Source: Bizionia sp. M204 (GTDB lineage Bacteria > Bacteroidota > Bacteroidia > Flavobacteriales > Flavobacteriaceae). From it: a stretch of 64,000 nucleotides of DNA. This document shows, piece after piece, positions 16,174 through 32,461 of the stretch. The notes beneath the pieces were generated by a model that had not been told where the DNA came from, did not search any database, and saw only the letters and a program-made list of their open reading frames with translations. The stretch is from assembly GCF_023205095.1 (NCBI RefSeq), contig NZ_CP046242.1, positions 1,663,001 through 1,727,000 on the forward strand, read 5' to 3'. The stretch's first letter is position 1. Every line of letters starts with the position of its first letter. Made by a program: the position numbers and the translations under genes.

Positions 16174-16503
16174 TTATGATTTTTGGAACTTCTTATTTTT
16201 AGCTTTCAAGTCACTTAATTTCTTCTCCAAACTTGTGATAACGTCTTCCGTTTTATGACTCACATTACTTACTATAGATTCCAATTGCTGATCAAAATCT
16301 TCTTTCCTATGCGTGACTGTATGGGCTACTTTGTCTCGTAAATCATGCGCTGTTTCACTCATTTTATCACGAGCATGTCCTGCTTCATCTGCAATTCGCT
16401 GTCTCGTATTTGAACCTTTGTCTGGAGCAAAGAGAATTCCTAATGTTACGCCAATGGCTGTGCCTGCTAAAATTCCTAATAATGTACTACTTTCTTTTCC
16501 CAT
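16174..16503 (-). CDS. YtxH domain protein, copy 2
   Basis: A 109-residue protein, the same length as copy 1, with the Gly/Ala-rich membrane segment LGILAGTAIGVTLGILF, APDKGSNTRQRIADEAGH, and a charged helical tail ending KLSDLKAKNKKFQKS. First gene of the second cassette; its upstream region holds a near-perfect dyad at 16627-16646. Confidence 0.88.
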   Translation of the reverse strand: MGKESSTLLGILAGTAIGVTLGILFAPDKGSNTRQRIADEAGHARDKMSETAHDLRDKVAHTVTHRKEDFDQQLESIVSNVSHKTEDVITSLEKKLSDLKAKNKKFQKS

Positions 16504-16626
16504 GATATTTGATGTTTATTTTAAATTATAATTCAGTATAAATCTTAATAAAAATATTAAAAATCTTACAACTCTAATTTAGTGAATTTTCAGCATATAT
16601 GACGACATAGTCTATAAATTTATTAT

Positions 16627-16646
16627 GTGGTAATATAGATTATCAC
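16627..16646. promoter_or_regulatory. Imperfect dyad upstream of YtxH cassette 2
   Basis: GTGGTAAT (16627-16634) and ATTATCAC (16639-16646) are complementary at 7 of 8 positions around ATAG. It lies 124 nt upstream of the YtxH start. Possible operator; no consensus recognised. Confidence 0.3.
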
Positions 16647-16686
16647 AATAACGAAATTAATATGGAACATTTTACAGTTAAAATGC

Positions 16687-16716
16687 AAAAAGCTTGAGTG
16701 AACCTCAAGCTTTTTT
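16687..16716. terminator. Intrinsic terminator after the FKBP gene
   Basis: Stem GCTTGAG (16692-16698) / CTCAAGC (16704-16710), flanked by A5 and T6, just past the stop of the FKBP gene on the minus strand. Confidence 0.85.
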
Positions 16717-16739
16717 ATAATGGAATATTTAAAAAATGT

Positions 16740-17168
16740 TTATTTGATAGCCACTAACTCTAATTCGAAAGTTAAATCTTGACCAGCTAATGGATGGTTT
16801 CCATCAACAATAATATGATCATCATTTACAGCAGCAACACGAAATTGGTGCTCTGTTCCATCAGGGTTTTTAGACGCAAGTCCCATTCCCACTTCCGGCT
16901 TAATGTCTTGAGGTAACTGATCTTTTTTCACTTCATGAAATAGTTCTTTCTGAACGTCTCCGTATGCTTCAGTTTTTTCTATTACGACTGTTTTTTTATC
17001 GTTTACTTTCATATCTAAAACTGCCTTTTCAAAACCAGGAATTAGCATACCTTGACCAAGTGTGAATTCTAACGGCTCTCTATCTGCAGAGCTATCAAAA
17101 ACTTGACCACTACTTAATTTTCCTGTGTAATGAACTTGTACAGTATCATTTTCTTTTACATGACTCAT
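16740..17168 (-). CDS. FKBP-type peptidyl-prolyl isomerase, SlyD-like
   Basis: The preferred start is ATG at 17168 (MSHVKENDTVQVHYTGK), giving 142 residues; the upstream Met at 17207 adds an unconserved leader. FKBP half-domain motifs are clear: VHYTGKLSSGQVFDSS, LGQGMLIPGFEKAV, and the terminal NHPLAGQDLTFELELV with the insert-in-flap region between, as in SlyD. There is no His-rich metal-binding tail. Cytoplasmic folding catalyst/chaperone by family; monocistronic with a terminator. Confidence 0.92.
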   Translation of the reverse strand: MSHVKENDTVQVHYTGKLSSGQVFDSSADREPLEFTLGQGMLIPGFEKAVLDMKVNDKKTVVIEKTEAYGDVQKELFHEVKKDQLPQDIKPEVGMGLASKNPDGTEHQFRVAAVNDDHIIVDGNHPLAGQDLTFELELVAIK

Positions 17169-24711: not shown

Positions 24712-24755
24712 AATTCGGATAAATTTGTCTGAATTAAAAATATGTTTTATATTTG
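24712..24755 (+). promoter_or_regulatory. Promoter and predicted NsrR-type operator of the rrf2 gene
   Basis: The dyad AATTCGGATA (24712-24721), AATT, TGTCTGAATT (24726-24735) agrees with the palindrome of the ric and nirK sites at 8 of 10 arm positions. It overlaps a -33 TTG (24725-24727), followed after 20 nt by TATATTTG (24748-24755), a perfect TAnnTTTG. A repressor bound here would block its own promoter. Confidence 0.65.
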
Positions 24756-24772
24756 TCCCATAAAATAAAACT

Positions 24773-25207
24773 ATGTTTTCTAAAGCTTGTGAATACGGCA
24801 TCAAAGCCTCCATATTTATTGCTTTAAACTCCCACCAAGAACAACGGGTAAGTTTAAAAGCGATTGCTAAAGAAATTGCTTCACCCGAAGCATTTACAGC
24901 AAAAATTTTACAAGATTTAGCTAGACATAACATCATTAACTCCGTAAAAGGTGCTCATGGTGGTTTTGAAATTGTAAAATCGCAAATTTCGAGTATTAAA
25001 TTAGAAGAAATTGTACGTGCCATTGATGGCGATACTATATATAACGGTTGCGGTTTAGGCCTGCACACTTGCGATGAAAGTCATCCCTGTCCTGTACATG
25101 ATAAATTTAAAGATATCCGAAATGATTTGAAAGTCATGCTAGAAACAACAAATTTGGAAGAATTAGCTTTAGGCGTCAAGTCTGGTGCTTCCTTTTTAAA
25201 AATTTAG
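24773..25207 (+). CDS. Rrf2-family iron-sulfur regulator, NsrR-like
   Basis: A 144-residue winged-helix protein. The Rrf2 opening SKACEYGIKASIFIAL, recognition region EAFTAKILQDLARHNIINS and the wing KGAHGGFEI are typical. Three Cys at positions 93, 100 and 106 (NGCGLGLHTC, HPCPVH) match the cluster ligands of NsrR and IscR, so it probably binds a [2Fe-2S] or [4Fe-4S] cluster. The adjacent ric gene and the three shared palindromes support NsrR-type NO sensing. NO specificity is inference; IscR-like function is the main alternative. Confidence 0.88.
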   Translation: MFSKACEYGIKASIFIALNSHQEQRVSLKAIAKEIASPEAFTAKILQDLARHNIINSVKGAHGGFEIVKSQISSIKLEEIVRAIDGDTIYNGCGLGLHTCDESHPCPVHDKFKDIRNDLKVMLETTNLEELALGVKSGASFLKI

Positions 25208-25245
25208 ACACCATAAATAAGTACGAGTAAAAAAAATTTAATTAT

Positions 25246-25269
25246 AAATAGGATATATTTATCCGAAAT
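25246..25269 (+). promoter_or_regulatory. Predicted NsrR-type operator of ric
   Basis: AAATAGGATA (25246-25255), TATT, TATCCGAAAT (25260-25269). GGATA-N4-TATCC is a perfect inner dyad. TATATTTA at 25254-25261 (7 of 8 to the -7 consensus) lies inside the dyad, so binding would occlude the promoter. The start codon is 13 nt downstream. Confidence 0.65.
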
Positions 25270-25282
25270 AAAGTAAAGCATT

Positions 25283-26020
25283 ATGGAAACATTACATAAA
25301 AACATGAGCAAACCAATTGGCGAATATGTAGCCGATGATTTTAGAACAGCTGCCGTATTTAGTAACTACGGGATAGATTTTTGCTGCAAAGGACACAGAA
25401 CTGTTGAGGAAGTTTGTAATAAAAATGGCGTAAATCCAGATGAACTTTTAAGTAAACTGGATGCTATTTTAGAATCCAAAGGTAATAACGCCATTGATTA
25501 CAAATCCTGGCCTTTAGATTTACTTGCAGATTATATTGAAAAAACACATCATAGATATGTGGAAGAAAAAATTCCCGTATTGCGCCAGTTTTTAGATAAA
25601 TTATGTAAAGTGCATGGTGGTAATCATCCGGAATTGTTTAAAATTAATGAACTCTTTACTGGTTGTGCTGGCGAACTAGCTGCACACATGAAAAAAGAAG
25701 AGTTAATACTTTTTCCATTCATTAAAAAAATGGTGAAAGCAACTTTAGACGGTCAAGCAATAGAAGCGCCGCACTTTGGAACTGTGGAAAATCCAATTGC
25801 TATGATGATGGAAGAACATGAAAACGAAGGCGAACGCTTTAGAAAAATTGCGCTTATCACTAACAATTATACACCACCTGCAGATGCTTGTAACACCTAT
25901 AAAGTTACCTATGCTATGCTGGACGAATTTGAGAAAGACTTACACCTACACATACATTTAGAAAATAACATTTTATTCCCTGAAGCCGCCAAATTAGAGC
26001 AGCGCTTTTTCCAAGAGTAA
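25283..26020 (+). CDS. ric: Iron-sulfur cluster repair di-iron protein (Ric/YtfE/ScdA)
   Basis: A 245-residue cytoplasmic protein. N-terminal ScdA_N (DUF542) domain with YGIDFCCKGHRTVEEVC (about residues 28-46), then a hemerythrin-like domain with ligand candidates in THHRYVEEKIP, LAAHMKKEELILFPF, MMEEHENEGERF and HLHIHLENNILFPE. Ric/YtfE repairs Fe-S clusters damaged by NO or oxidants and may convert NO. Located 75 nt after the rrf2 regulator with its own operator. Confidence 0.95.
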   Translation: METLHKNMSKPIGEYVADDFRTAAVFSNYGIDFCCKGHRTVEEVCNKNGVNPDELLSKLDAILESKGNNAIDYKSWPLDLLADYIEKTHHRYVEEKIPVLRQFLDKLCKVHGGNHPELFKINELFTGCAGELAAHMKKEELILFPFIKKMVKATLDGQAIEAPHFGTVENPIAMMMEEHENEGERFRKIALITNNYTPPADACNTYKVTYAMLDEFEKDLHLHIHLENNILFPEAAKLEQRFFQE

Positions 26021-26045
26021 ATTAATAGCAATTGTTATTTTCAAT

Positions 26046-26206
26046 AACTGGAAGTTAATATCTTTTTAACTTCCAGTTTACTAAAAAGTTTAGTAATTAA
26101 TAGTTTGTTTACTGATACACTTCTCTTGTCTATTTTATAAATAAGTATTTTTTTAGAGGGAATATTTATTGTAAGTTATGGTTTCAACAAGAGAAGTGTT
26201 TTTTTT
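26046..26206 (+). ncRNA. Structured leader or small RNA with terminator, upstream of the His-rich membrane gene
   Basis: Three hairpins follow one another: a 13-bp perfect stem (26046-26058 with 26066-26078), an 8-bp stem TTACTAAA / TTTAGTAA (26078-26085 with 26089-26096), and a 13-bp perfect stem ACACTTCTCTTGT (26117-26129) / ACAAGAGAAGTGT (26187-26199) closing a 57-nt loop and followed by T8 (26199-26206), 22 nt before the next start codon. This is either ric termination, an attenuator or a small RNA. The T-run favours termination on plus. Confidence 0.4.
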
Positions 26207-26228
26207 ATTTATTCTAACGTCTTAATGC

Positions 26229-27431
26229 ATGCCAAAAAATCTGGTTATCACCTGTCTATTTAATTTTTTAATAGCAGCACTTATGGGTTTGATGTTGCGT
26301 TATTTTTACGTGAATCCCATAGCAATCAATTATAGATTTCTTACGCATGCCCACTCTCATGTTGCCATGTTAGGTTGGGCTTATTTAGTGCTTTATTGCT
26401 TTATCGTGCACTATTTTGTGCCAGAACAAAAATCCGTTTATTCTAAACTTTTTTGGTTAACCCAAATTGCGGTAATTGGTATGATGATCAGTTTTCCCAT
26501 TCAAGGTTACGCTGCCATTTCTATAAGCTTTTCAACTCTACATATTTTTTGTAGCTATTACTTTGTGTATCGGATTTGGAACGATTTACAAATAAAAAAT
26601 AGCCTAGTAAAACAATTAGTTAAGGCTTCCTTACTTTTTATGGTTATTTCAACCATTGGCGTTTGGTGTTTAGGTCCAGCTGTGGGTTTATTGGGACAAG
26701 CATCAGCCTTTTATCAAATAGCTATTCAGTTCTTTTTAAACTTTCAATTTAATGGTTGGTTTCTATTAGCTGTTTTGGCTATTGCCTGTCATCAGTTAAA
26801 AATTCAACCATCAGAAAGCGCCAAAGTATTTTTTAAATACCTTGTTTTAGCTACCATTTTAACCTTTGCCTTACCTATACAATGGTTTGCCAGTCACCCA
26901 CTACTCTACTGGGTTAATGGGTTAGGCATCCTTTTACAACTAGTTTCACTCTACTATTTCATAAAAATTATAAAACATAAATTTCAAACGTTTAAGGCCG
27001 AAACATCTATGCTAGTCATACGTATGTATCAGTTTTCTTTAGGTTGTTTTATCATTAAAACCAGCTTACAAACCCTGTCTATAATACCGCAGTTTTCTTC
27101 TGAATTATTTGAACATCACAATTTTATTATTGGCTTTATTCACCTAACCATGCTTGGTGTTATTAGCGGTTTTTTATTTGCATTTTTATTACAATCTAAA
27201 ACTATCTTGCCAAGTCGTTTTATTTCCGTTGGCTTATCCTTATTTTTACTGGGCTTTATTTTAACGGAAGCTATTTTATTTATTCAAGGCGCTTTCTACT
27301 TTTTAGGAATTGGACTTTTGCCAAACTATTACAGCATTTTATTTGTAGTAAGTATCCTTTTACCTGTTAGTATTACGCTTATTCTAATAAGTTATCTTAA
27401 ACAAAAATATTATGGAACCCAAACCACTTAA
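26229..27431 (+). CDS. Polytopic membrane protein with conserved-looking His, unknown function
   Basis: A 400-residue protein with about 12 hydrophobic segments and no large soluble domain. Features: THAHSHVAMLGW (His40, 42, 44), His61, LHIF (His105), HQL (His188) and EHHNFIIGFIHLTMLG (His296, 297, 305). The His-x-His before a GW helix and the H-x(7)-H-L-T-M-L-G element recall haem-binding helices of haem-copper oxidase subunit I or NnrS proteins, but I do not recognise it as either. Its setting between ric and a hemerythrin gene suggests NO, O2 or haem handling. Its end overlaps the hemerythrin gene by 20 nt. Confidence 0.8.
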   Translation: MPKNLVITCLFNFLIAALMGLMLRYFYVNPIAINYRFLTHAHSHVAMLGWAYLVLYCFIVHYFVPEQKSVYSKLFWLTQIAVIGMMISFPIQGYAAISISFSTLHIFCSYYFVYRIWNDLQIKNSLVKQLVKASLLFMVISTIGVWCLGPAVGLLGQASAFYQIAIQFFLNFQFNGWFLLAVLAIACHQLKIQPSESAKVFFKYLVLATILTFALPIQWFASHPLLYWVNGLGILLQLVSLYYFIKIIKHKFQTFKAETSMLVIRMYQFSLGCFIIKTSLQTLSIIPQFSSELFEHHNFIIGFIHLTMLGVISGFLFAFLLQSKTILPSRFISVGLSLFLLGFILTEAILFIQGAFYFLGIGLLPNYYSILFVVSILLPVSITLILISYLKQKYYGTQTT

Positions 27432-27873
27432 ACGTCATAAAGCATTACAACCATTAAGTCGTGAGCATCATCACGGTTTATTACTATCCTGGAAAATCAG
27501 GTCAGGTTTCAGCAAAAACGTGTCTGTAGAACGCATGAAAACATATGCGGATTGGTTTTTTGAAAATCATTTAATACCACATTTTGAATTAGAAGAAGCT
27601 GAAATTTTTTCCATTCTAGATTCTCAAAATGAGTTGGTAAAAAAAGCACTGGCAGATCATAGACGATTAAAACGCTTATTTGCGGAAGATTCCAGTTTAG
27701 ACAAATCGTTGAGTAAAATTGAAGAAGAATTAGAGCAACACATTCGTTTTGAAGAGCGTATCTTATTCCCTGAAATACAAAAGGTTGCAACCGAAGAACA
27801 ACTGCAGCATATAGCAAAAATCCACCAGCCAGAATCTTTTGAAGATAACATAACTGATGAATTTTGGAAATAA
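27412..27873 (+). CDS. Hemerythrin domain protein (second)
   Basis: A 153-residue cytoplasmic protein with HKALQPLSREHHHGLLLSWK, FFENHLIPHFELEEAEIF, and EEELEQHIRFEERILFPEIQ, i.e. His/Glu spacing of an HHE di-iron bundle, plus ADHRRLKRL in helix 3. It starts inside the preceding membrane gene (20-nt overlap), so the two are translationally coupled and likely act together. NO or O2 binding is inferred from family and context. Convergent with the alginate-export gene. Confidence 0.88.
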   Translation: MEPKPLKRHKALQPLSREHHHGLLLSWKIRSGFSKNVSVERMKTYADWFFENHLIPHFELEEAEIFSILDSQNELVKKALADHRRLKRLFAEDSSLDKSLSKIEEELEQHIRFEERILFPEIQKVATEEQLQHIAKIHQPESFEDNITDEFWK

Positions 27874-27913
27874 ACGAATAGGCAACAAAAACTAGTTTCC
27901 GAACATAGTGCAG

Positions 27914-29179
27914 CTATTCGTTACTCTTAAAACTTGTTTTAAATAAACTAGGTTTTATGGTAATCATAGCCCAAGCCCAATTAGTTGTAGCATTGGCATT
28001 TCCGCCTTTTAAAACGGCCATAGTGTCTGTTGCAAACATTTGCGAATATCCTGCTTGAAAACTCACATCTTTAGTCCATTTATAAGTTAATGCTAAATCT
28101 ATTTCTGTTCCTAGATAAGCATCCATATCTTCATTTAAAGAATTGGTTACGGTTGCCGCAGACGAAAACATGTGCGGAATAACAGAAACGGAAAACTTGT
28201 TTTTAGTATAGGTTATATTGGCGTAAACATCAACCAATCCCACCGAATTGATGTGATTTCCTACGTAAAAATAATCCATCCATCCATTAAATTTATGATT
28301 TGTTCCATACCAAGGATTAAAGGAGTTACTATCAGAATTTGTAGCATCCATATCCGTTCCTGAAAGATATTCTACACCTAACCCCGGTTTTAAACCGTTT
28401 TTAAAAGTATAAGATCCATTAAAGGATAGATTATAAGCTTGAACCGGTTGGTCAGCAATTTTTCCGGTCTGAAAATATAGGGATGCATCCGCGTTAAATG
28501 GACTTTTAGCTAGTTTAGCATACGCACCAAATGTTTGGTTGTAATCTACTTCTTCCTGCCCATTTTTTATGAAAGCCAATCCATTATTAAGTGCTAAAAA
28601 ACTTAAATTAACAGGTGATAACTGTGTATGATACCAAATATATTGTAAAGATTTGTAATTGTTTAAGGCGTAATTGGTTTCAAAAAGACTTTCAGAACTA
28701 GCATTTAGTGCTAAACCCAATTCAAAATGATTATTGGTATTAGGTTTATAAATAGCTAATAAAGCATCATGACTTCTTGCTTGTTGTGCCCAACCTACGG
28801 CTCCAAAAATCCGTTGATCGTCATAAGAAATTTCTTGACGCCCAAGTTTTAATGAAAATTCAGGCGTAAACAGTAATTCTGCCCAAGCTTCATGAATGCT
28901 TGTTCCATTATTATCTGCCGTATTCAAGGTAGGAACATCGCCCCAAACACGAACATCTTGAATGCTTAAATACATATTAATTTTTTCACTTCCATATCCC
29001 AAATTTAATCGGGTACGTTGGGATACGAATGAAGCAGCATCTAATGAATCTACTGTCAACGTTTTATATCCATTACGATATTCTAAGCGTGGTCTCAATT
29101 CTGCCGAAATCTCAAAATTTTGGGCAAAAAGGGGCTGGCTCATAACTCCGAGGAGCATGATAATTAATAGTTTTCTCAT
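27914..29179 (-). CDS. Alginate-export family outer-membrane porin
   Basis: A 421-residue protein with a Sec signal (about residues 1-19, ending LFAQ) and amphipathic strands across its length. The opening NFEISAELRPRLEYRNGY and LKLGRQEISYDDQRIFGAVGWAQQARSHDAL is the alginate_exp porin signature. No alginate genes are nearby. Its place as the last gene of the nirK operon strand suggests it may serve nitrite or other solute passage, which is inference. Confidence 0.88.
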   Translation of the reverse strand: MRKLLIIMLLGVMSQPLFAQNFEISAELRPRLEYRNGYKTLTVDSLDAASFVSQRTRLNLGYGSEKINMYLSIQDVRVWGDVPTLNTADNNGTSIHEAWAELLFTPEFSLKLGRQEISYDDQRIFGAVGWAQQARSHDALLAIYKPNTNNHFELGLALNASSESLFETNYALNNYKSLQYIWYHTQLSPVNLSFLALNNGLAFIKNGQEEVDYNQTFGAYAKLAKSPFNADASLYFQTGKIADQPVQAYNLSFNGSYTFKNGLKPGLGVEYLSGTDMDATNSDSNSFNPWYGTNHKFNGWMDYFYVGNHINSVGLVDVYANITYTKNKFSVSVIPHMFSSAATVTNSLNEDMDAYLGTEIDLALTYKWTKDVSFQAGYSQMFATDTMAVLKGGNANATTNWAWAMITIKPSLFKTSFKSNE

Positions 29180-29231
29180 AAGATTATTATTTTACTATGC
29201 ATGCCAGTTTGCATGCGTGAAGACCTTTATA

Positions 29232-29948
29232 TTAGGATGTTAATTCTAAAATAGTTGCTATAGTTTCTTTATTGTCCACGCCTAAACCTTCTTGCTGATG
29301 CATTAATTCGCCTTGCGCATTAAATACCGAAATGATATTGGAGTGCGAAAAATCTATAGGTGAAATTTCTTTATACTTTACAGATAATACATTGGCAAAT
29401 TCTCTTACACCACTTTCTGAACCTTGTAAAAATGTCCAATGTTCATCATCCATAGCATTTTCTATTGCAAAATCTTTTAAACGCTCTGGTGTATCTACTG
29501 TAGGGTCTATACTGACCAATATAAACTGAAGATCGTTTAAACTTTCTTTCGGGATTTGCGCTTCAATATTTCGCATATCTGCTACAAGTCTGGGACAAGC
29601 CGCTTTACAGGATGTGTAAATCATGACCATGACCAAGGTTTTTCCTTTTAAATCTTCAAGCTGAATTTCGGTACCTTCTTCCGTGTTCCATTTACTGGTC
29701 AGGTTAAAAATTGATTCATCAGAAATCTCTCCAAAAGCTTCCGTTTTTGAAACTTTTTCTTCAACTAATTGTAAGTCCATTTTACAAATAGGACAACCCA
29801 CGTTTTTTTCATAAGTTTTATCTCCTTCACATTGCATCGGACATTGATAAACCCCAGAAAGTTGACCTGTATTTTTCTTATCAGAATTACAACTTTGAAA
29901 TGCTACAACCGTTAGCAAAACAACAACTATATATTTTAGTGTTTTCAT
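29232..29948 (-). CDS. SCO family copper chaperone with N-terminal heavy-metal-binding domain
   Basis: A 238-residue lipoprotein (VAFQSC, Cys20). Residues about 33-65 form a heavy-metal-binding (YHS-like) domain: YQCPMQCEGD and CPICKMDL. The remainder is a SCO1/SenC thioredoxin fold with the copper motif TSCKAACP and the distant His in DFSHSNI. SCO proteins deliver copper or reduce thiols of copper enzymes. With nirK as the upstream gene it probably helps assemble the copper sites of nitrite reductase. Starts one base after the preceding gene ends. Confidence 0.93.
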   Translation of the reverse strand: MKTLKYIVVVLLTVVAFQSCNSDKKNTGQLSGVYQCPMQCEGDKTYEKNVGCPICKMDLQLVEEKVSKTEAFGEISDESIFNLTSKWNTEEGTEIQLEDLKGKTLVMVMIYTSCKAACPRLVADMRNIEAQIPKESLNDLQFILVSIDPTVDTPERLKDFAIENAMDDEHWTFLQGSESGVREFANVLSVKYKEISPIDFSHSNIISVFNAQGELMHQQEGLGVDNKETIATILELTS

Positions 29949-29949
29949 T

Positions 29950-30726
29950 TTATTTTAATTTTTCAACATCTTTTACACAACGAAAACCTAGGTTTTTCAT
30001 GGAATTCTTTGCTTGTAAGCTTCCGCGAATAGCATAACGCATAAAAGCGGCATAATTCATTAAATCCGTTGCATTTATGGAAGCACTACCGCAAAACAAA
30101 TTGCTATCGGTGTCTGTATCTTTTCTAGATTCTCCGGTAATTAATACCGAATTAAAATCTAGCGTCCACTCCCAAACCAAACCATGTAAATCATAAACGC
30201 CCCAAACATTTTTTGGACTTTCTCCAATAATATACTCCTTACGAGGTTCTTCATACCAAGCTAAAATCCGTGCATTATATTCGGGTTTAACGCGGGCGTC
30301 TTTGGTGGTTTCGTCTGCCATAGCAGCATATTCCCATTCATCTACAGTTGGTAATCGTTTGTCTTGACATTCGCAATAGGCTTTCGCGGCGAACCAGGAT
30401 ACATTGGTAATTGGGCTGTTGGGATTAACAAAATCATTCATTTTTAAATCTGACTCCCAATTAGACAAGTAGCTTTTATCTGCAAATAAGCCTTTTACTT
30501 GCGACTTTCGCCATTTTGGATTCTCTTTTAAAAACGTTTCATAGTCTTTAATACTAACAGGATACATGTCCATTTTAAAATCTTTGACAGCAACAACTGT
30601 TGAGTCACGACCATACAACGGTAAGTAGCGGCTTCCTTCTATAAGAACCATATCTTTAGCTTGTCCAAACATAATAGATTGAAATACTAAACACATTAAA
30701 AACAAGCTAAAGACTCTGGTTTTCAT
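29950..30726 (-). CDS. Formylglycine-generating-enzyme-like (SUMF1) secreted protein
   Basis: A 258-residue protein with a Sec signal (about residues 1-22, ending SIMFGQ). FGE-sulfatase fold motifs: NFMDMYPVSIKDYETFLK-type opening (DMYPVSIKDY), NPNSPITNVSWFAAKAYC, RLPTVDEWEYAA, VWGVYDLHGLVWEWTLDF and the ending NLGFRCVKD. No sulfatase gene is near, and the catalytic Cys pair of true FGE is not evident, so it is probably not a sulfatase-modifying enzyme. It lies 8 nt after nirK and directly before the SCO gene; a role in nitrite reductase maturation or as a non-haem metal protein is inference. Confidence 0.85.
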   Translation of the reverse strand: MKTRVFSLFLMCLVFQSIMFGQAKDMVLIEGSRYLPLYGRDSTVVAVKDFKMDMYPVSIKDYETFLKENPKWRKSQVKGLFADKSYLSNWESDLKMNDFVNPNSPITNVSWFAAKAYCECQDKRLPTVDEWEYAAMADETTKDARVKPEYNARILAWYEEPRKEYIIGESPKNVWGVYDLHGLVWEWTLDFNSVLITGESRKDTDTDSNLFCGSASINATDLMNYAAFMRYAIRGSLQAKNSMKNLGFRCVKDVEKLK

Positions 30727-30734
30727 ATTTTAAA

Positions 30735-32195
30735 TTATTTATTTTTTACTTTATTAACCATTTCTGTTGTAACAACTTGTTTGTTGTTCCCCCAGCTATT
30801 ATAAACATAAGTTAAGACATTAGCAACCTCTTCTGAAGAAATCATCTGTCTCGTCATAACACTATTATAAGTGTTTCCGTTAACAGTTATCTCTCCACTT
30901 AAGCCATTAACTACAGCACTAATTGCACGATTTACATCAGCATTTAAGTAATCTGATTTTGCCAATGGCGGAAAAGCATTAGGAATACCTTGACCTTCGC
31001 CTTGGTGACAAGCAAAACATGTTTGCATGTATACTTGTTTACCAAATTCCATTTGCTCCTCAAATGATTTTGCTGGAATTTCAGATTCTACAATTTCATC
31101 GGTTGTAGGCATACTTTGAATTCCAGGACCCTCTGGATGGTAAATACCTTCATATGTTTCGCCAGAATAGATTTTCTCATTTTCTTCACCTTCAACATTT
31201 AGAATTCCTAAAGCGCCTTTATTAAAAGCTCTAAAAATAGAGTGATCTACTAAAACAAGTGATCCAGGAACATCCACACGGAACTCAACAATAGCAGCTC
31301 CACCAGCAGGAATAAGCGTGGTTTGTATGTTTTCATTAATCAAGTCGCCTCCTTCTACATATACTTTGTCAAATATCTCGCCAATAACATGGAAGGATGA
31401 TACTAGGTTTGGTCCACCATTACCAACATAAAGTCTTACAGTTTCCCCTACTTGAGCTGTAATGGCATTATCGCCAGTTAAACCATCAACACTACCGTTA
31501 AACACAACATAATCGGCATTTTCATCAACCGCTTTTTGCATATCGAAAGGTTGCAATCCTCGTTCACCATTTTTTCCTTTAGTATAGAAGTCACCTTGCA
31601 TGATATAATACTCTTTATCAACTGGTGGCAAACCGCCTTCAGGCTCAACCAAAATTAAACCATACATACCATTTGCAATGTGCATTCCAACCGGTGCTGT
31701 TGCACAATGATAAACAAACAAGCCTGGATTTAACGTTTTAAAAGAAAACGTTTTTTCAAATCCTGGTGCCACGAATGAAGACTCTGCGCCTCCGCCTGGT
31801 CCAGTAACGGCATGTAAATCGATGTTATGCGGTAATTTGTTGTCTGGGTGATTCGATAAGGTAAACTCCACTTCATCACCTACTCGGGTTCTAATAAAAC
31901 TTCCTGGCACAGAGCCTCCAAAAGTCCAATAGTTATATCTTACACCATCAGTCATTTCGCCTTCTTGCTCAAGAATTTCCATATTCACTTTAAGCTTTTT
32001 CGCTTTTCTTCTCCCAATAGGTGTTGGAACGTGAGGTGGCGCCGTTAATTCTGCCATCATTTCTTGATTAACTGGAATATCTTCAGCATTTTCATAGCTT
32101 GCTTGTTTTTCTTCCATACAACCTGTAAAAAATACAGCCAAAGCAAACAATACCATCATTGGGTAAACGGGTTTCATAAATTTCTTTGTTTTCAT
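30735..32195 (-). CDS. nirK: Copper nitrite reductase NirK fused to cytochrome c, lipoprotein
   Basis: A 486-residue lipoprotein (FFTGC, Cys26). Two cupredoxin domains carry every catalytic residue: type 1 copper His123, Cys164, His172 and Met177; type 2 copper His128, His163 and His318; and the proton-relay pair Asp126 and His269. A C-terminal cytochrome c (about 385-470) has CFACH at 393-397, with Met447 or Met451 as the probable axial ligand. The haem domain supplies electrons to copper in the same chain. It reduces nitrite to NO at the cell envelope. First gene of the SUMF1-like, SCO, porin operon and preceded by the operator. Confidence 0.97.
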   Translation of the reverse strand: MKTKKFMKPVYPMMVLFALAVFFTGCMEEKQASYENAEDIPVNQEMMAELTAPPHVPTPIGRRKAKKLKVNMEILEQEGEMTDGVRYNYWTFGGSVPGSFIRTRVGDEVEFTLSNHPDNKLPHNIDLHAVTGPGGGAESSFVAPGFEKTFSFKTLNPGLFVYHCATAPVGMHIANGMYGLILVEPEGGLPPVDKEYYIMQGDFYTKGKNGERGLQPFDMQKAVDENADYVVFNGSVDGLTGDNAITAQVGETVRLYVGNGGPNLVSSFHVIGEIFDKVYVEGGDLINENIQTTLIPAGGAAIVEFRVDVPGSLVLVDHSIFRAFNKGALGILNVEGEENEKIYSGETYEGIYHPEGPGIQSMPTTDEIVESEIPAKSFEEQMEFGKQVYMQTCFACHQGEGQGIPNAFPPLAKSDYLNADVNRAISAVVNGLSGEITVNGNTYNSVMTRQMISSEEVANVLTYVYNSWGNNKQVVTTEMVNKVKNK

Positions 32196-32226
32196 AATTT
32201 TAAATATTGATTAGTGTTTAAAAATT

Positions 32227-32264
32227 AATTCGGATGTTTTTATCCTAATTAAAGAACAAATGTA
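32227..32264 (-). promoter_or_regulatory. nirK promoter with predicted NsrR-type operator
   Basis: On the minus strand TACATTTG (plus 32257-32264) is a perfect -7 box. The dyad AATTAGGATA, AAAA, CATCCGAATT (plus 32227-32250) begins 6 nt downstream, so it covers the likely transcription start. It closely matches the dyads at rrf2 and ric. Start codon 31 nt further. Confidence 0.68.
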
Positions 32265-32461
32265 ATCATCATATCAAGTTTGTTTTATGATATTTGTCAG
32301 TTTCCTTAATTTTAAGTTAAAAATATTAAAAAAACAAGCTAAACCAATTAAAACCAGTCCTATTAAAAAAAAGGTCGCCTGTTTAAACGTTTGTTAACAA
32401 CTTCCATTTTCTAAACCCACAAATAATTGTATTTTTACGCGTAATTAAACCAAATCAATTA

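Follow-up and report, generated by a model that had tools for sequence, protein, structure and literature searches.

The stretch of DNA analysed here (the window) comprises 64,000 nucleotides of contig NZ_CP046242.1 from Bizionia sp. M204, whose whole genome measures 3.36 Mb. It carries the gene of an Rrf2-family regulator (rrf2), the repair gene ric and the nitrite reductase gene nirK, and the promoters of all three hold a related inverted repeat, or dyad. In this bacterium and its relatives the dyad marks genes for nitric oxide (NO) repair and for denitrification, and it offers a testable switch for NO and nitrous oxide (N2O) metabolism. Flavobacteria are common marine bacteria, and many carry clade II nosZ, the enzyme removing nitrous oxide. 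The specific operator, the candidate regulator encoded beside it and a second box that splits respiratory from protective genes bring the control of NO and N2O turnover within reach of direct tests. The main features are given below, with conservation counted in named relatives. These are the best 80 of the 508 loci obtained by scanning genome contigs with the window Rrf2 protein; they include the genera Bizionia, Xanthomarina, Gelidibacter, Winogradskyella and Algibacter and, being picked by likeness to that protein, are mutually related.

24712..24735, plus strand: dyad AATTCGGATAAATTTGTCTGAATT in the rrf2 promoter, kept in 76 of 80 named relatives.
24724..24727, plus strand: putative -33 element TTTG at the centre of the rrf2 dyad, with a 20 bp spacer to the -7 element.
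24748..24755, plus strand: putative -7 element TATATTTG of rrf2, TAnnTTTG at +34 to +37 from the dyad start.
24773..25207, plus strand: rrf2 (clade A), 144 residues, with Cys93, Cys100, Cys106, His109 and Glu7 (PF02082, TIGR00738).
25246..25269, plus strand: dyad AAATAGGATATATTTATCCGAAAT ahead of ric, kept in 66 of 75 named relatives.
25283..26020, plus strand: ric, iron-sulfur cluster repair di-iron protein (TIGR03652, 245.6 bits, cut-off 204.7).
30735..32195, minus strand: nirK, copper nitrite reductase with a C-terminal cytochrome c domain (TIGR02376, 361.5 bits, cut-off 296.3; PF00034 at residues 385-466).
32227..32250, minus strand: dyad AATTAGGATAAAAACATCCGAATT (minus-strand reading) over the likely nirK start site, kept in 28 of 32 named relatives.
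32257..32264, minus strand: putative -7 element TACATTTG of nirK, 35 bp from the FNR-like box.
32288..32299, minus strand: FNR/CRP-like box TGACAAATATCA of nirK, 35 bp ahead of the -7 element TACATTTG.

The first-pass annotation of this DNA had proposed that the three dyads define one regulon, and they do lie exactly at the positions that it gave. The palindrome that it quoted holds as a consensus and does not occur as such in the window, because all three dyads are imperfect, with 2 (rrf2), 3 (ric) and 2 (nirK) mismatches over its 20 specified bases; arm-to-arm pairing, counted by hand, amounts to 8, 7 and 8 of 10. At up to three mismatches these three are the only matches in the window, and 100 shuffles gave none. 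Significance by count over the whole genome was rejected. The pattern with W flanks at up to three mismatches occurs at 9 places in 3.36 Mb against 11 for its backwards control, and a looser consensus at three mismatches yields 76 and 53 matches against 75 and 66. Since such counts carry nothing by themselves, the case is made from position, conservation and co-occurrence only.

Conservation at orthologous promoters, on which the proposal hinged, was found for rrf2 (76 of 80), ric (66 of 75) and nirK (28 of 32). The norB promoter suggested for checking also proved to be linked: a dyad stands at qnorB in 8 of 10 loci, qnorB being our name for a 748-residue protein that Pfam (PF22085, PF00115) classes as a NorB-type nitric oxide reductase, with no NCBIfam match. 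In 8 of the 9 ric exceptions, qnorB sits between rrf2 and ric and the dyad is ahead of qnorB. Taking the best match to the quoted consensus within 200 bp upstream of each gene, at most six mismatches were counted in 70 of 81 rrf2 promoters (window included; shuffled half-sites about 1.65) and in 23 of 33 nirK promoters (shuffled about 1.0), and at most five in 66 of 76 ric promoters (shuffled about 1.4 at up to six).

The rrf2, ric and nirK promoters supplied 110 distinct sites for a motif, which reads approximately AAWTMRGAYA-N4-TRTCYKAAWT. Over the 80 loci (1.56 Mb) it scores at least 15 in 198 places, whereas 20 column-permuted motifs averaged 1.0 hits and reached 11 at most, and one of the 198 hits falls inside a long open reading frame (ORF). 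When the downstream ORFs are named from their start sequence or their length, the hits are found to precede rrf2 (77), ric (65), nirK (24), the 748-residue protein (11), the nos cytochrome (9), a 132-residue protein (6), a PAS/hemerythrin protein (1) and other ORFs (5); 27 of them thus stand before genes outside the training set, namely the 748-residue, nos cytochrome, 132-residue and PAS/hemerythrin ones. Because all three promoters had contributed to the motif, the test was repeated with one promoter for training at a time. The nirK-trained motif recovers 79 of 80 rrf2 and 68 of 75 ric promoters, the rrf2-trained motif 31 of 32 and the ric-trained motif 27 of 32 nirK promoters, and each single-promoter motif 8 of 10 qnorB sites, in all cases above 99% of permuted motifs. 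A common regulon of rrf2, ric and nirK is therefore strongly supported by conservation and cross-trained motifs, together with co-occurrence of dyad and Rrf2 gene.

This co-occurrence was measured in 149 Flavobacteriaceae genomes. The exact pattern is present in 28 of them, which divide into 26 of the 55 with a close Rrf2 orthologue (at least 149 bits, a cut set by us) and 2 of the 94 without (Fisher p 1e-11, ignoring shared ancestry); its backwards control gives 3 hits in the 149 genomes. The exceptions with an exact site and no close orthologue are G053, which has a 46% Rrf2 that falls in clade A (the clade of the window Rrf2), and G016, where the single exact site overlaps the start of an apparent CRP-type gene and is probably due to chance. 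Genomes were also taken in which two scans, at E 1e-15 and 1e-20, gave no Rrf2 hit, although remoter Rrf2 proteins may exist there: the dyad is found at 0 of 6 ric promoters (G016, G031 twice, G094, G100, G136) and at 0 of 5 true nos operons (G016, G031, G078, G094, G124). More generally, ric was taken at 20 loci of 19 genomes without a close Rrf2, with a negative best score in 13 of the 20. G053 scores 23.1, its adjoining 46% Rrf2 grouping with clade A, and the other six positive loci score 7.8 to 18.6, mostly with sites of a looser AAAGAYA type (null 99% at 6.5, maximum 16.1 of 580). If a factor unrelated to Rrf2 bound the dyad, neither its absence from ric and nos promoters of genomes with no Rrf2 hit nor its presence in rrf2's own promoter in 76 of 80 loci would be expected, and we consider this explanation very improbable.

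Some sites lie far from rrf2. The one of the qnorB-ric pair of G021 is about 0.56 Mb away from it if the contig is circular. In three genomes a small cupin gene has an exact dyad about 120-390 bp upstream (L318:2275-2619, L319:1241-1579, L322:1625-1972), on another contig than rrf2 in G013 and G134 and 12.5 kb away from it in G080. A bacterial-like globin gene adjoins the cupin gene in L318, and G014 has an exact, nearly perfect dyad (L317:2057) far from rrf2 and without a clear target gene.

Regarding position, the first-pass annotation had every dyad overlapping a promoter element or the likely start site. This is supported for rrf2, where the dyad is centred on the TTTG of the putative -33 element, and for nirK, where the dyad is at the expected start site, and finds no support for ric. 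TAnnTTTG follows the rrf2 dyad start by 34-37 bp with 71 matches over 76 sites (window included), and it lies 13-17 bp ahead of the nirK dyad with 17 matches over 25 sites. A -7 element within the ric dyad was rejected, as TAnnTTTG is inside the dyad in 3 of 66 sites. TTTG is named a -33 element after what we take to be the Bacteroidetes -33/-7 promoter consensus.

The window Rrf2 passes PF02082 (83.3 bits, cut-off 30) and TIGR00738 (85.5 bits, cut-off 73.3). Cys93, Cys100 and Cys106 had been correctly called as its cysteines, and His109 is likewise invariant: the arrangement CX6CX5CX2H is found in 106 of 106 distinct clade A proteins, picked by the N-terminal start SKACEYG, and in 48 of 48 other flavobacterial Rrf2 proteins. 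The clade A proteins also have Glu7, in 106 of 106, and it aligns with an acidic residue of E. coli NsrR, Asp8. In the NsrR of Streptomyces, an Asp8 serves as cluster ligand. The description of this protein as NsrR-like stands only in part. The three cysteines expected as cluster ligands are there, and the positions of the sites point to the NO-linked targets of an NsrR (ric/ytfE, nor, nir). On the other side, the NCBIfam model for NsrR, NF008240, gives 29.7 bits against a cut-off of 182, the spacing departs from the CX4CX5C without a histidine at +3 of the E. coli NsrR record, and the predicted fold ranks nearer to CymR, RsrR and IscR. NF008240 is matched weakly by 31 of 32 members of Rrf2 alignment A2 (best E 1.9e-12). 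This model may be narrow (enterobacterial), so that the protein may yet be a distant NsrR. The predicted fold (pLDDT, the predicted local distance difference test score, 83.7; 32 sequences) is an Rrf2 fold and says nothing on cluster or dimer; its best PDB matches are CymR, RsrR and IscR, and NsrR first comes at rank 27. A tree of 78 rows, made from a quarter of the clade A proteins and all others, does not place the Rrf2 groups relative to E. coli NsrR and IscR, these references having branches of length 10 and 5. We think it likely that the window Rrf2 works like NsrR; its membership of NsrR is not established.

The same protein data bring in IscR, with its CX5CX5CX2H. Rrf2 might bind the dyad and sense general iron-sulfur status, oxygen or iron, as IscR-like proteins would, and not NO specifically. 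The window protein has the same ligand residues as IscR with one spacing longer (CX6 instead of CX5), including the histidine that E. coli NsrR lacks; its score with the IscR model TIGR02010, at 53.4 bits, is below the cut-off of 207.55 and above the 29.7 bits of the NsrR model, and IscR, CymR and RsrR all rank above NsrR in the fold search. Yet the promoters found are NO-linked (ric, the NorB-type reductase, nirK, nos, norC) in a search that left isc and suf promoters outside, and Glu7 aligns with Asp8 of E. coli NsrR. We regard IscR-like sensing as unlikely, and NO as the better candidate for the signal.

The sites upstream suggest that the regulon extends beyond rrf2, ric and nirK to qnorB and the nos operon, and also to norC, where the core is looser. 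Elsewhere in the genome of Bizionia sp. M204, beyond the window, a cytochrome c-fasciclin-nosZ-nosL-nosD-nosF-nosY operon has a dyad (score 21.7) ahead of it, and another (17.5) stands before a second Rrf2 gene that neighbours norC-norB-norQ-norD-(PAS/hemerythrin)-norE. Among these genes nosZ was identified by TIGR04246 and norQ by PF08406, and nosL, nosD, nosF, nosY, norC, norB, norD and norE were named from sequence and gene order. A 132-residue protein without a family match is encoded at the end of the nos region (L075, about 16420-16819), and in six other loci a dyad lies ahead of the gene for a similar protein (e.g., L144:2537-2935).

The flavobacterial Rrf2 proteins near these genes fall into three groups. 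Clade A takes 33 tree rows with a support of 99 in the Shimodaira-Hasegawa-like approximate likelihood ratio test (SH-aLRT), and group B, with the nor-linked Rrf2, takes 25 rows with 98. Group C is poorly resolved and is divergent from nos in many genomes (e.g., L264, L272, L277, L279). One group B gene lies beside nor at L145:12102-12560. A looser core, RGAYA-N4-TRTCY, is common to the promoters of group B and C Rrf2 genes and of norC; in hand counts, with a pattern that has no shuffle control, it was seen at 20 of 27 norC promoters (one of the matches lying 300 bp away), 25 of 30 nos promoters and 16 of 30 promoters of group B/C Rrf2 genes. Scored with the clade A motif, nos sites have medians of 16.1 and 13.6 with group C present against 18.9 with A only (p 0.016, uncorrected for ancestry), and the idea that the nos operator changes cleanly from group A to group C was set aside as weak at this uncorrected p value. 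A dyad-like site at L122:1501 (G000:C1:387891; score 20.5) stands directly before a phosphoadenosine phosphosulfate (PAPS) reductase gene of the Bizionia genome and may belong to another Rrf2.

Such findings raise the question of whether the dyad is bound by the other paralogues, group B beside nor and group C beside nos, or by several Rrf2 proteins of which clade A is one. The core common to promoters linked to all three groups (again without a shuffle control), the lower scores of nos sites where group C is present (the same ancestry-uncorrected p of 0.016) and the group B gene with such a site in the Bizionia genome speak for it. Nevertheless, exact sites of the clade A type track the presence of clade A (26 of 55 against 2 of 94), they also occur in genomes for which two scans gave clade A as the only Rrf2 match (G110, G130 and G141, for example), and the distance to the clade A start is almost constant for most rrf2 sites. 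Binding by the paralogues is in our opinion improbable, somewhat more so than IscR-like sensing, and the clade A protein is preferred as the regulator.

A second palindrome, TGAY-N4-RTCA, resembles an FNR box; its occurrence at nirK had not figured in the first-pass annotation. In 28 of 30 nos promoters (hand count) it starts 35 bp ahead of TAnnTTTG. The combination of the box with TAnnTTT at 34-36 bp is present in 29 of 33 nirK promoters (shuffled mean 0.00) and 17 of 27 norC promoters (shuffled mean 0.05), and is absent from those of rrf2 (0 of 80), ric (0 of 75) and qnorB (0 of 10), with shuffled means of at most 0.05; among group B/C Rrf2 genes it stands in 3 of 30 promoters. Class II CRP/FNR activators use a box centred near -41.5, and the spacing observed here, with predicted start sites, puts the centre of the FNR-like box near this position. 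Respiratory genes therefore seem to read two inputs and protective genes one, since the box is at most nirK, norC and nos promoters and at none of rrf2, ric and qnorB. The Bizionia genome has four HTH_Crp_2 matches, three of them over the cut-off. The best one has several cysteines near its N-terminus (L313:1492-2169) and is encoded some 13-20 kb from the nos operon, and this FNR-like protein is, from its sequence, a candidate activator for the box. In a metatranscriptome study, the CRP/FNR homologue of one Flavobacteriales bin was assigned to carbon sensing in the passages covered (PMC8510549).

The relative placement of both palindromes differs between promoters. Among 29 nirK loci, 22 have their best dyad on the likely start site, 48-52 bp past the beginning of the box (L042, L044 and L067 score below 15); the dyad abuts the box upstream (-25) in 4 of 29 and lies at -82/-83 in 3 of 29. 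At nos, the dyad abuts the box upstream in 27 of 30 loci, the box starting 24-26 bp after the best dyad start, and in the Bizionia genome the distance is 36 bp, which is one helical turn more. None of the five nos promoters from genomes lacking an Rrf2 hit has the dyad, and three of these five still have the box at a spacing of 35 bp. This layout invites the thought that at nos Rrf2 acts as a co-activator or anti-activator and not as a simple repressor, comparable to the NsrR of Thermus. The rigid spacing and the four nirK promoters that share the layout (-25) are in its favour, as is the effect of an nsrR deletion in Thermus, which lowered norC and nirJ transcription and raised nirS according to the passages of PMC5748679 covered. 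The rrf2 and nirK sites, on the contrary, sit where repression is expected. We consider such a role at nos somewhat unlikely, and simple repression remains our preferred reading for rrf2 and nirK.

The dyad, its conservation, the promoter set, the two-palindrome layout and the co-occurrence with the Rrf2 gene form the sequence basis. From it we infer that Rrf2 binds the dyad and carries a cluster, which way control runs, that NO is the signal and which protein would be the FNR-like activator. Taken together, these features suggest that the dyads are operators of the adjacent Rrf2, an iron-sulfur protein most likely sensing NO, and we give this reading a probability of about 0.75. Without NO, a cluster-loaded Rrf2 dimer would sit on AAWTMRGAYA-N4-TRTCYKAAWT, where it would cover the -33 element of rrf2, leading to autorepression, and the start site of nirK, leading to repression. 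The ric and qnorB promoters have the dyad only, with its place relative to the promoter not fixed. NO, coming from NirK or from outside, would damage the cluster and make the dimer leave the DNA, which would release ric, rrf2, qnorB (where present), nirK and nos together. In addition, nirK, norC and nos would need an activator of CRP/FNR type bound about 41.5 bp before the start. Respiratory genes would thus require low oxygen (or a like signal) plus NO, and the detoxification and autoregulatory promoters NO only.

Several points weigh against this interpretation. The 80 loci are related and were selected by the window Rrf2, and the Fisher test for co-occurrence takes no account of shared ancestry. 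The exact site is lacking in 29 of the 55 genomes with an Rrf2 orthologue, and the dyad is missing at rrf2 in L052, L069, L078 and L085, at nirK in L042, L044, L067 and L092, at ric in L065 and at qnorB in L082 and L103. Where ric lacks rrf2 as a direct neighbour, 18 upstream regions were scored; 8 of them exceed 7.5 and none exceeds 18. In 6 of these 18, ric is at most 3 kb from rrf2, and in G021 the operator precedes qnorB instead. At nos, the dyad is upstream of the activator box with its centre near -60, a position from which simple blocking of the polymerase would not work; besides, 4 of the 27 abutting nos dyads score 5 or less. The pairing of paralogues with sites is unsettled because two other Rrf2 groups have a nearly identical core. 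Finally, the carbon-sensing assignment in the part of PMC8510549 covered means that a role in oxygen or NO response is not favoured for every CRP/FNR protein of this kind.

A broader scheme can be put forward tentatively, as something rather less likely than not: a two-palindrome code of the Flavobacteriaceae. The FNR-type box at -41.5 would license nirK, nor and nos, and the Rrf2 operator would gate them by NO and alone control repair and detoxification. The three Rrf2 groups, linked to ric/nirK, nor and nos, would divide the steps by slightly shifted operators, and the side of the operator, over the start site or abutting upstream in helical register, would decide between block and help.

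The aniA gene of Neisseria gonorrhoeae encodes a nitrite reductase of the copper type. Its promoter is likewise a nitrite reductase promoter with an FNR activator and an NsrR repressor relieved by NO, according to the passages covered (PMC1802743). Unlike it, the two-site layout described here is at nirK, norC and nos across a Bacteroidota family, with -7 elements of TAnnTTTG type and a different Rrf2 operator. In Thermus thermophilus, DnrS/DnrT and NsrR also act as activators first and NsrR second at nir and nor promoters; the Thermus NsrR operator CTTGACCNNGGTCATGG differs from our dyad, and the dual role considered above for nos is that of Thermus NsrR (PMC5748679, in the same passages). 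The NsrR regulon of beta- and gammaproteobacteria, Bacillus and Streptomyces includes dnrN (ytfE, a ric), norB and, in some species, nirK among its targets, as told in the portions of PMC1274295 covered. The regulon here is like it in having a candidate regulator of the Rrf2 family and ric, norB and nirK as putative targets. The first-pass annotation rightly stated that the consensus differs from that of NsrR, which in the same portions is gATGyAT-N5-ATrCATc (PMC1274295) against ARGAYA-N4-TRTCYT here. In them, hmp is the most conserved NsrR target; it was not seen beside the present sites, and no search aimed at hmp was made. The word stem 'flavobacteri' was not found in the main text of PMC1274295. 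Rrf2 genes near nosZ have been described in clade II nos clusters of metagenome contigs, with a role called difficult to predict (PMC6264515). These resemble our group C, and the PMC6264515 passages covered give no binding motif or regulon. Among the titles, abstract beginnings and passages covered, with most subscription papers lying outside, no operator or regulon for flavobacterial denitrification genes was found. The FNR-like box at respiratory promoters is new relative to the first-pass annotation; NsrR regulons and FNR-NsrR pairs are known elsewhere. As judged from sequence, operator and regulon are real and conserved, and the idea of the first-pass annotation is right in outline, with a richer picture that includes nos, nor, two-input promoters and paralogues.

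Two more genes probably belong to the nirK operon of the window:

29950..30726, minus strand: formylglycine-generating-enzyme-like protein (PF03781), likely nirK operon, adjoining nirK in the nirK-bearing named loci.
29232..29948, minus strand: SCO1/SenC copper protein (PF02630), likely nirK operon, in an arrangement kept in relatives.

Beyond ric, a 400-residue protein encoded at 26229-27431 looks membrane-bound and has no Pfam or NCBIfam match; it adjoins ric in many relatives.

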